40,040 bases of DNA from a virus: the IMG/VR virus record IMGVR_UViG_3300037502_002103, positions 1 through 40,040 of that record, one strand, 5' to 3'. Position 1 is the stretch's first letter, and each line of letters begins with the position of its first letter. This document shows, in pieces, positions 16,260 through 19,805 of the stretch. Position numbers and translations under genes: made by a program. Under the pieces are notes generated by a model. It saw only the letters and a list, made by a program, of their open reading frames with translations. It was not told where the DNA came from and made no database searches.

Positions 16260-16288
16260 ATCCCTGCACAGGTTCAGCTGCCAGGGAT
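16260..16288 (+). promoter_or_regulatory. Stem-loop before the endonuclease VII gene
   Basis: ATCCCTG (16260-16266) pairs perfectly with CAGGGAT (16282-16288) across 15 bases. No T-run follows, so it is not a standard terminator; it may control translation of the next gene. Confidence 0.4.
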
Positions 16289-16311
16289 TGACCGAACGAT
16301 TGGAGTTCGAT

Positions 16312-16815
16312 TTGAAGAAGTGTAGCAAATGCGGTTTGGACAAAGACCGATCCTTGTTTTACCAGCAACCATCAAAACCAGACGGTCTTCACAGCTGGTG
16401 CAAGTCGTGCAAAAAAGAATCTGATGTTCTTTATCGAAGAAATAATCTTGAACTCATCAGAACGAAACAGCGGGAACAGCGAAAGATGAAACGGAAAACG
16501 CACCCTGATCTTGCTAAAGATATGAAATTGAAGGAAGTCCATAACATTTCTTTAGATGACTACAAGCGTGTCCTCAAAGAACAAGGGGGAGTGTGTGCTA
16601 TCTGTGGCGACCAGAATGGGCGGGTTGACCCAAGAACGGGGAAAAGAATGATGCTTTCCGTTGACCACGACCATACCTGTTGTCCGAAAAAATACAGTTG
16701 TGGCGATTGTTTTAGGGGGCTACTGTGTAATCGATGCAACATGGGGTTGGGTCACTTCAATGATGATCCACAGCTGATGTTTCGTGCTATTTCGTACTTG
16801 ACTCGGTTGTTGTAA
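16312..16815 (+). CDS. Endonuclease VII-family HNH nuclease
   Basis: 167 residues from the TTG at 16312, chosen because GGAG lies six bases before it and the product then begins with a Lys-Lys-Cys-x-x-Cys zinc knuckle (Cys4, Cys7; partners Cys30, Cys33); a TTG at 16288 has no ribosome site. The C-terminal domain has CAICG (Cys95, Cys98), VDHDHTCC (His119, Asp120, His121), GLLCNRC (Cys139, Cys142) and GLGHFNDDP, the T4 endonuclease VII pattern. Family members cut branched DNA or act as free-standing mobile HNH enzymes. Its TTG start, flanking hairpins and more AT-rich codons than its neighbours hint at separate acquisition. Confidence 0.85.
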   Translation: MKKCSKCGLDKDRSLFYQQPSKPDGLHSWCKSCKKESDVLYRRNNLELIRTKQREQRKMKRKTHPDLAKDMKLKEVHNISLDDYKRVLKEQGGVCAICGDQNGRVDPRTGKRMMLSVDHDHTCCPKKYSCGDCFRGLLCNRCNMGLGHFNDDPQLMFRAISYLTRLL

Positions 16816-16959: not shown

Positions 16960-17496
16960 ATGAGGATATTTACACGGCTTACAGCCGCACTCACGGTAGG
17001 GCTGATCGCCTTCGGCAGCATCGTCTACGCAGCCGAAGCCCCAGCCAACCCCCCGTTTCCCACCTACACCCCTCTCAGAGAGGCTCCTATCGCGTCTGAG
17101 AGGCTCCTGGAGACACCCATCGTGTTCCGTCACGGCGACATCTCCTGGCTCCCCCAACTCGCAGCCCAGGCAGGCTGGCCTGAACGCACCTGGAAACGCC
17201 TCGGAAACATCATCCTCAGAGAATCAGGTGGCTGCCCGAACCGTCGAGGCGGGGACGCAGTAAACAAGTTCTGTGAGATCACCCACGTCACCGAATGGAA
17301 CCATCGCTCCGACACCGGTTTGCTTCAAATCAACGGGGTCAATTACGATCTCACACGCAACAGATGGGCTGTTGTCTGCAACCAGATGGGAGTCTGCGAG
17401 CAGGAACCACTACTCGATCCCCTCACAAACCTAAAAGCTGGATATTTACTGTGGCAGGTGGCAGGATGGGGACCGTGGAAAAGGAACTCACAATGA
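16960..17496 (+). CDS. Secreted lysozyme-like transglycosylase
   Basis: 178 residues with GGGAGGG before the ATG. A signal peptide is clear (basic start, hydrophobic ALTVGLIAFGSIVYA, cut near residue 25-27). The mature part has a lysozyme-superfamily core: IILRESGG with the presumed catalytic Glu88, DTGLLQINGV, and a C-terminal helix before WGPW; two Cys pairs are likely disulfides outside the membrane. It would cut the glycan strands of peptidoglycan without needing a holin. It is 5 kb from the lysis cassette and beside WhiB, so it could act in early wall modification, superinfection exclusion or delayed lysis. Confidence 0.75.
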   Translation: MRIFTRLTAALTVGLIAFGSIVYAAEAPANPPFPTYTPLREAPIASERLLETPIVFRHGDISWLPQLAAQAGWPERTWKRLGNIILRESGGCPNRRGGDAVNKFCEITHVTEWNHRSDTGLLQINGVNYDLTRNRWAVVCNQMGVCEQEPLLDPLTNLKAGYLLWQVAGWGPWKRNSQ

Positions 17497-17771
17497 TCCT
17501 CGCGGAGATGGATCCCCTATACGACAACGACACCAGTTTCTTCACTGACGCAAACTGCAAAGGTATGCCAGCTGACAAGTTCTTTATTGAGCCACGCACA
17601 CCCCAACAGCACATCCTGATCGCTGAAGCCAAAAAGATCTGCGGTCTGTGCCCCGTACGGAAACGCTGTCTAGAGTTCGCACTAAACAATCACATCCATC
17701 ACGGCATTTGGGGTGGGTACACTACGAGACAACGGAGAGGAATACGGCGTGACCGACGAGATCGAGTTTGA
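17493..17771 (+). CDS. WhiB-family iron-sulfur transcription regulator
   Basis: 92 residues from the ATG overlapping the previous stop (ATGA). Four Cys in WhiB order: Cys22, then Cys50-x2-Cys53-x5-Cys59, binding a [4Fe-4S] cluster, followed by the GIWGG turn (71-75) and a basic RQRRGIRRDRR tail for DNA contact. Wbl proteins act with the actinobacterial primary sigma factor. Phage copies (e.g. WhiBTM4) are known to repress host whiB2 and affect septation and superinfection. The encoded protein has all key residues, so is probably functional. Strong evidence for an actinobacterial host. Confidence 0.93.
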   Translation: MILAEMDPLYDNDTSFFTDANCKGMPADKFFIEPRTPQQHILIAEAKKICGLCPVRKRCLEFALNNHIHHGIWGGYTTRQRRGIRRDRRDRV

Positions 17772-17982: not shown

Positions 17983-18327
17983 ATGACACCAGCGGAAATA
18001 GATCTCTTTGTGGACCGCCTCTGCTCATTCTGGCCGACCACGAACATCGCACGAAACACGTTGAAGAACGGGTGGAAACACTCCGAAATCATCATCGACG
18101 CAACCAGCGACCACGGCAAACAAGTGCTCGCAGACTGCAAACCGTTACCGAAGTTCCCCGACCTGAACGCTATCGAAGCGATGTTCCGCAAAGTGATGAA
18201 CCGTCAACTCGCAGAGATCGGGTGCGAAAAGTGCGGCAACACCGGCTTCATCGAAGGCACACCAATCCAACAACTCGGTTTCACCTATCGGACATCCCGA
18301 TACTGCACGTGCAGGAGAACACAATGA
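17983..18327 (+). CDS. Small zinc-ribbon-like protein, unknown
   Basis: 114 residues with a very good AGGAGGGG site. N-terminal helical part (LCSFWPTTNIARNTLKNGW), C-terminal CEKCGNTGF ... YCTCRR, four Cys in two pairs that could form a zinc ribbon like that in phage replisome-organiser or loader proteins. With no helicase or primase here, it is one of few candidates for a replication helper, but that is inference. Its stop overlaps the methyltransferase start (ATGA). Confidence 0.6.
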   Translation: MTPAEIDLFVDRLCSFWPTTNIARNTLKNGWKHSEIIIDATSDHGKQVLADCKPLPKFPDLNAIEAMFRKVMNRQLAEIGCEKCGNTGFIEGTPIQQLGFTYRTSRYCTCRRTQ

Positions 18328-19805
18328 AACCAACATTCGGAAGTCTTTTTGCTGGAGTCGGTGGCTTTGACATGGGCATGGAGCAGGCTGGCTGGGAGTG
18401 CAAATTCCAAGTCGAATGGGACAAACACTGCCAACACATCCTCAACAAACACTGGCCTGACATCCCCAAATGGGGTGATGTATCCACAGTAAGTGGCACA
18501 GAGATCCCACCTGTGGACTGCATCATCTTCGGCTCACCATGCCAAGACCTCTCCGTAGCAGGCAAACGAGCAGGTCTACAAGGGGAACGCTCAGGATTAT
18601 TTTACGAAGCAGTACGAATCATAAAGGAGATGCGTCATGTCACAAATGGAACTTTTCCCCGATGGGCAATCTGGGAGAACGTCGCCGGAGCCTTGTCCTC
18701 CAACAACGGACGGGATTTTGCAGCAGTCATCAGTGAAATGGCTGAAGCAGGGGCGGTTCTCCAAGAATACGCTCTCTTGGATGCGCAATACTTCGGAATA
18801 CCCCAGCGACGAAGGCGCGTGTTCCTCGTCGCTTGCTTCGATCCTGCAATCGCCCGCAACTGTCCAGACCCGCTACTACCTGTCAGCGAAAGCTTGCGAG
18901 GGAATACTGCGAAGGGCAAACCGAAGAGGCAAGTTGCTTCCAGCGAGACTTCAGCAGGCTTTGGAAGCAGCGGTGTCGAACCGTTCGTGAAATCGCGTCG
19001 CGCACAGTCCGCTTCCGATGATGAAACATGGGTAGAAGGACAAGTAAACCCAACCCTCAACTCGTTCGACATGGGGGACACACGCTCAACCACCGCCATC
19101 GTCACCAACGAAGTCGTCAAAGACCCCGTAGGCACACTCCAAGCAAGAGTCGCAGCAACCAACCACGAATCAATCCGTGACGGTCACGCCATCATCACCG
19201 AAACCCACCTTCTTGACGGGACACGAGTAAACGATGTGCGCATCTACGAGCCACCCGTCCAAACCTTGCAAGCACGAATGGGCACTGGAGGCAACAATGT
19301 TCCCATGCTCGCGTTTGACACCCAGTTCGGCAGCAACGCCAATGTGTTTGAAGACCGGTCACCAACGCTGAAAGCCAGCCAACAGTCACCCTCGGTCGCA
19401 TACCCAATCGATGCCCGTAACGCTCTCCGTGACCCAGAAAAATATGATGCCCAAAATCGTCAAGGATTGGGTATCGGAGCTGACGGCGACCCGATGGCAA
19501 CACTCACATCAGCCCATGTGAACGCTGTCGCATACGACGAATACAACGACAGCATCAACGAAACCCATCATGCGCTACGAGCAGGAACCAAACAATCCAC
19601 AGGCGTACTAGAACCAACAATGGCTGTACGCAGACTCACACCCCTTGAATGTGAACGTTTGATGGGATGGCCCGACGACCACACCCGATGGAAAGCAGAC
19701 GGAACCGAACAAGCAGACACGCACCGTTACAAACAGTGCGGCAACGGGGTCGCATCACCAGTCGCACAATGGATCGCGACACACATCCTGAAAGCGCACC
19801 GATGA
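18324..19805 (+). CDS. DNA (cytosine-5) methyltransferase
   Basis: 493 residues from the ATG overlapping the previous stop; the frame is open further upstream but that part lies over the previous gene. Seen in order: motif I FAGVGGFDMG (about 9-18), motif IV GSPCQDLS with catalytic Cys73, motif VI ENV (118-120), motif VIII QRRRRVFLVA (161-170), a long variable target-recognition region (about 175-435), motif IX RRLTPLECERLMGWP and motif X QCGNGVASPVAQWI. All catalytic motifs intact. No restriction partner is visible, so it is an orphan enzyme, probably protecting phage DNA from host nucleases. Positions 18637-18990 also encode a second protein in another frame. Confidence 0.93.
   Translation: MKPTFGSLFAGVGGFDMGMEQAGWECKFQVEWDKHCQHILNKHWPDIPKWGDVSTVSGTEIPPVDCIIFGSPCQDLSVAGKRAGLQGERSGLFYEAVRIIKEMRHVTNGTFPRWAIWENVAGALSSNNGRDFAAVISEMAEAGAVLQEYALLDAQYFGIPQRRRRVFLVACFDPAIARNCPDPLLPVSESLRGNTAKGKPKRQVASSETSAGFGSSGVEPFVKSRRAQSASDDETWVEGQVNPTLNSFDMGDTRSTTAIVTNEVVKDPVGTLQARVAATNHESIRDGHAIITETHLLDGTRVNDVRIYEPPVQTLQARMGTGGNNVPMLAFDTQFGSNANVFEDRSPTLKASQQSPSVAYPIDARNALRDPEKYDAQNRQGLGIGADGDPMATLTSAHVNAVAYDEYNDSINETHHALRAGTKQSTGVLEPTMAVRRLTPLECERLMGWPDDHTRWKADGTEQADTHRYKQCGNGVASPVAQWIATHILKAHR
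18637..18990 (+). CDS. Overlapping gene nested inside the methyltransferase gene
   Basis: 117 residues in a different forward frame. Own ribosome site AAGGAGA six bases before the ATG. The end reads YYLSAKACEGILRRANRRGK then a basic helical stretch with LQQALEAA; the middle has Ser/Trp-rich segments and SSSLASIL. I recognise the YYLS-x-KAC-x-GILRRA-x-RRGK signature as a recurrent phage protein found beside or overlapping cytosine methyltransferase genes. The methyltransferase frame here also carries conserved motifs (ENV, QRRRRVFLVA), so both frames appear to be real. Function unknown; an association with the methyltransferase is likely. Confidence 0.75.
   Translation: MSQMELFPDGQSGRTSPEPCPPTTDGILQQSSVKWLKQGRFSKNTLSWMRNTSEYPSDEGACSSSLASILQSPATVQTRYYLSAKACEGILRRANRRGKLLPARLQQALEAAVSNRS

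Follow-up and report, generated by a model that had tools for sequence, protein, structure and literature searches.

A stretch of 354 bases within the C5-cytosine DNA methyltransferase gene of a phage almost certainly represents a genuine dual-coding region. The nested open reading frame (ORF) runs from ATG to stop on the plus strand, lies wholly within the methyltransferase ORF and encodes 117 residues in the +1 frame (Table 1). Leaving the clamp step discussed below out of consideration, the nested gene very probably encodes a conserved accessory protein. The viral record analysed, hereafter the window, is 40 kb long. The host frame belongs to the C5-methyltransferase family PF00145 and carries, in one frame from its ATG to its stop, motifs I, IV, VI and VIII, a long insert, and motifs IX and X, in this order. 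As proposed in the initial annotation, motifs VI (WENVAG) and VIII (QRRRRVF) are both read within the overlap, and a strong ribosome site precedes the nested start. In terms of codon registers, the third position of the methyltransferase is the second of the nested frame, and its first position is the nested third. The nested segments SG[RK]TSPE and NTSEYP are partial mirrors of methyltransferase motifs VI and VIII, and the nested YYLS...RRGK segment sits above a weakly constrained methyltransferase linker. Elsewhere in the window, an ORF at 17295-17771 has a WhiB-like four-cysteine pattern (CKGMPADKFF...CGLCPVRKRC), which suggests an actinobacterial host, and an Endonuclease VII/HNH-like ORF at 16288-16815 has a TTG start and paired CxxC motifs.

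Table 1. Coordinates of the nested gene, its signals and its host gene in the window
Feature	Position	Strand	Evidence
C5-cytosine DNA methyltransferase, frame 0	18324..19805	+	PF00145 E=1.3e-58; phrog_116 E=6e-88
Nested gene, 117 aa, pI 9.7	18637..18990	+	ORF, homologues, synonymous constraint, codon-position flip, reshuffling
Shine-Dalgarno AAGGAG, ATG 18637 7 nt downstream	18624..18629	+	Spacing matches homologues; enriched vs synonymous reshuffling
QMELF codons, N-terminal clamp-binding-like pentapeptide of the nested product	18643..18657	+	Sequence
Codons for the conserved C-terminal region of the nested product (TRYYLSAKACEGILRRANRRGKLLPARLQQALEAAVSNRS)	18871..18987	+	Alignments; AlphaFold2 pLDDT about 90

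Several tests give evidence for dual coding. Synonymous sites were compared among 77 methyltransferases sharing less than 80% identity, with only pairs below 60% taken into account. The ratio of observed to expected codon identity at shared amino acids is 1.07 upstream, 1.66 in the overlap and 0.94 just after the nested stop. Synonymous-codon identity peaks, up to 3-fold over expectation, at the YYLS...RRGK codons, a peak that is partly selected because the pattern used to pick the genome loci spanned the YYLSxKACxG codons; the flanking codons of the overlap lie outside this pattern. Moreover, the codon positions change their roles. In related pairs, the third position of the methyltransferase accounts for 66% of differences upstream and for 9% at the YYLS...GILRR codons (codons 180-195), where 62% of differences fall on its first, i.e. 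the nested third, position; the usual order is back after the nested stop. The share of the third position likewise drops from 68% to 24% in a Firmicutes set picked without the nested gene, and the flip is weakly repeated in P1-type plasmids, where the upstream part of the comparison is partly out of register. Purifying selection is thus seen on both frames across the overlap, as in an overprinted gene, and, of the two, the nested frame has the tighter constraint in its C-terminal part. The initial annotation had taken both frames to be real and had looked to synonymous sites for a decision; the strong excess of conservation there, bounded by the nested ORF, supports it together with the flip and the reshuffling described next. 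A conserved RNA or DNA element that freezes synonymous sites and makes no protein would by itself be compatible with such constraint, but is highly improbable, as the variability within the overlap follows the order of a coding frame (nested position 3 > 1 > 2), and the open frame, the start and the Shine-Dalgarno (SD) site are conserved.

Of the synonymous reshufflings of the window methyltransferase, 1.9% kept an open +1 frame, and the probability of an open frame given the methyltransferase protein has a median of 0.067 per locus over the 77 loci. Against a profile of distant homologues, the nested product of the window scores 137.3 bits, compared to 32.5 ± 6.6 for reshuffled sequences (maximum 59.1, z=15.9, n=2000). 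That the nested frame merely mirrors a conserved methyltransferase and its codon bias, with no protein made, draws on the partly forced SG[RK]TSPE and NTSEYP segments, but has next to no likelihood left and, judged from sequence, is already refuted at the level of selection: reshuffling retains the mirror yet drops 105 bits of profile score, the codon positions flip, the constraint stops at the nested stop, and ordinary C5-methyltransferases do not have the frame.

Homologues carry their own start codon and SD site, which the initial annotation had named as a further check, so that the overprinted gene has conserved initiation signals of its own. The position of the start has shifted along the methyltransferase, lying just before motif IV in proteobacterial loci and between motifs IV and VI in window-type and Firmicutes loci. 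With starts chosen blind to SD sites, 18 sites of at least 5 nt are seen against 7.6 expected, and a GAGGTG site is common to the Firmicutes loci.

The nested family is widely spread. Searches with tblastn matched 114 phage records for the window query and 143 for an Enterobacter-phage query, and a P1 query matched 530 plasmid records, mostly P1-like. A single ten-residue pattern, run in one scan over 84,980 species genomes, gave 497 confirmed matches, with record titles spanning Proteobacteria, Acidobacteria, Firmicutes, Actinobacteria, Bacteroidota, and Planctomycetes. Each of the 80 best IMG/VR relatives is nested in an intact methyltransferase that has motifs IV, VI, and VIII, always in its +1 frame, and the same holds for nearly all retained genome loci. 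Furthermore, unbiased sets were assembled from methyltransferases picked solely by sequence upstream of the nested start. The nested frame is present in 80/80 of the window type (78 by pattern, loci L219 and L222 by eye) and in 72/75 of the Firmicutes type, the three exceptions being a decayed methyltransferase, a frameshift, and a single stop ahead of an otherwise intact nested C-terminus. Among 26 further C5-methyltransferases from the same genomes, the frame occurs in all 10 of phage type and in none of the 16 of ordinary type, in which the +1 frame shuts within 28 codons of motif VI. The carriers form one clade with a support of 0.996 in a tree of the region from motif I to VI. The simplest reading is one overprinting event in an ancestral phage C5-methyltransferase, retained since. 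None of the copies found outside a methyltransferase is truly free-standing, the exceptions being HNH-interrupted (phage Thibault), frameshifted or at a contig edge. The initial annotation had called dual coding here rare; it is instead the rule within one large phage methyltransferase clade. The signature is recurrent as claimed, but inside phage methyltransferases rather than near them. An intein-like sequence (CFPGDV...VVHNC) apparently splits motif IV (PCQ) ahead of the nested gene in a Beijerinckiaceae locus (L146 457-2376).

Nested genes are already known as a kind in phages, and overprinting, i.e. a new protein arising from an alternative frame of an older gene, has been reviewed for viruses (PMC8227390). 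Compared to such cases, the present family spans phages and prophages of many bacterial phyla, and its C-terminal domain dominates the host frame. A literature search, with most subscription journals outside its coverage, found no account of a gene nested within phage cytosine methyltransferases. The family is recorded only as unnamed proteins, namely phrog_16143, gp104 of Mycobacterium phage Thibault, and a 163-aa hypothetical protein in a P1-like phage record; being out of frame inside a well-annotated enzyme, it has been overlooked. As 85 of 92 nested proteins match phrog_16143 (139 positions) at E<=0.01 (best E=1e-15, window E=0.0045), this is probably the nested family. Its label, 'DNA methyltransferase', probably reflects the surrounding host gene and is misleading for the nested product, and neither the nesting nor a function of its own is recorded there. 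The annotated gp104 (hypothetical, 81 aa) is the C-terminal domain of the nested frame. In Thibault (L084 841-2642), an HNH endonuclease gene inserted just after motif VIII halves the nested gene and overwrites its N-terminal part; even so, the methyltransferase can be read without a stop through the endonuclease, and the C-terminal domain of the nested frame retains its annotated ORF. In phage P1 (AF234172; L083 2728-3198, L249), a 157-aa ORF of the family lies inside dmt and is unannotated in both GenBank and RefSeq. In several P1-like plasmids (L283, L285-L287), dmt is annotated with a product of roughly 1000 aa or more (CDS of 3042-3288 nt), apparently running into the upstream rdgC region.

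The nested product is basic and appears to consist of two parts. AlphaFold2 gave low confidence to the N-terminal 60 residues, which are probably disordered according to this model, and predicted with confidence a helical unit at the C-terminus, with helices at 84-97 and 103-116 and a pLDDT of about 90 from residue 71 on. In alignments, Y-x-L-S, A, G-I-L-R-R-A, L-P-x-x-L, and A-L are near-invariant in this unit. Cys 87 is unlikely to be catalytic, since many relatives have Ala in its place. For the nested protein, searches of Pfam, NCBIfam and PADLOC turned up no usable family, and a fold search of the PDB with the C-terminal domain had nothing at E<=0.001, VIA being the best at Z 3.5. In a viral structure library, the top matches were mainly likely family members and the lower ones chance. 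Two candidates were dropped: phrog_2907 'excisionase' (E=0.055), which matched a single member, and one match at E=0.15 in a PDB profile search. Owing to the lack of a fold match and of a Pfam family, binding of DNA or of the methyltransferase has no independent support. As for the function, given as unknown in the initial annotation, there is one lead, at the N-terminus.

In many members, the motif Q-x-x-[LIM]-F directly follows the start (MQLSIF, MQLTLF, MQLDLF, MSQMELF, MTSDQLDLF, MMEQMNLF, QESLF). Within the first 25 residues, Q..[LIM]F occurs in 23 of 65 non-redundant N-termini, where reshuffling of the methyltransferase codons in the overlap predicts 0.83; a single match falls in the 8315 residues elsewhere in the nested proteins. 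The strict form QL[SDTNE][LIM]F is seen 8 times against 0.02 expected. The motif is not a mirror, because the methyltransferase residues beneath it differ by lineage (DATLDLLVGG, DATNSIYP, DAIDHVRTK). It resembles the bacterial clamp consensus QL(S/D)LF (PMC9690074), and the QMELF of the window is a motif of this kind, as found in beta-clamp clients. Among distinct N-termini, the motif is present in 50/83 of the window type and 21/67 of those derived from genomes, and in 0/56 from Firmicutes; the P1 nested protein begins with MQLTTNGLS and has no canonical motif. A clamp role would therefore be lineage-dependent or replaced, and docking could not be universal in this form, the Firmicutes branch being without the motif.

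The favoured guess is that the nested product is an accessory protein that would tie the methyltransferase to the replication clamp, a reading to which we assign a probability of only about 0.3. The protein is presumably translated from the methyltransferase mRNA by means of its own start and ribosome site. Its disordered tail would attach to the beta sliding clamp of the host through the Q-x-x-[LI]-F peptide, and the basic helical domain at the C-terminus would bind either DNA or the methyltransferase. By analogy, new phage DNA might be methylated on leaving the fork, much as PCNA recruits Dnmt1 in clamp-coupled methylation (PMC9690074). The bacterial clamp clients and the PCNA-Dnmt1 pair share with this proposal the same short motif and the same idea of methylation at the clamp; here, the motif stands at the very N-terminus of a separate, nested protein and the binding is putative.

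Among the other roles considered, a structural subunit of a two-polypeptide methyltransferase is improbable. The M.EcoHK31I enzyme is made of two polypeptides in overlapping frames. It and M.AquI are two-polypeptide C5 enzymes (PMC3404938), and the likeness lies in a C5-methyltransferase locus yielding two polypeptides. Additionally, in three loci (L088 2845-3732, L129 2824-3801, L146 1943-3493) the nested frame is fused in frame to motifs IX-X, which the host frame lacks. However, the second polypeptide of the known enzymes carries motif IX (or IX-X) and is required for catalysis, whereas the nested product of the window has no methyltransferase motif, and motifs IX and X are held by the host frame as RRLTPLECERLMGWP and YKQCGNGVASPV. 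The three fusions agree with a methyltransferase partnership, but frameshift mutation or misassembly may account for them. In a further locus (L353), the N-terminal half of the methyltransferase is joined to the nested C-terminal domain.

The nested product might instead inhibit host replication, its motif poisoning or occupying DnaN rather than recruiting the methyltransferase. The N-terminal clamp-type motif would fit, and the small protein SocB blocks replication via such a motif (PMC9690074). This role is nevertheless unlikely, since a strict tie to one methyltransferase clade is unexpected for a free-standing inhibitor, and the gene is kept in P1-like plasmid prophages that coexist with their host. 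Somewhat less doubtful is a regulator of the activity or expression of the methyltransferase, which would check methylation in the prophage or in early infection with no contact to the clamp. Co-inheritance with the enzyme and the basic helical C-terminal domain are in keeping with regulation, but no known DNA-binding fold was detected and the clamp-type motif would be left unexplained.

Irrespective of its function, the nested family provides a clean and widespread natural case of long dual coding, with a clear switch of dominance between the two frames. It is present in P1-like plasmid prophages and in prophages of several bacterial phyla, and is almost never annotated. P1 dmt was non-essential in the laboratory by CRISPRi (PMC10695390), a point against the accessory reading. 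Knock-outs of P1 dmt and similar genes take away two proteins, which changes their interpretation. Moreover, through the family a connection between phage DNA methylation and the replication clamp becomes open to testing. Tentatively, and with real doubt, a single ancient overprinting may have given a methyltransferase clade a built-in second protein that couples it to the sliding clamp, with a relative in P1 dmt. If true, this would be a phage counterpart of PCNA-Dnmt1 coupling, concealed in an alternative frame.
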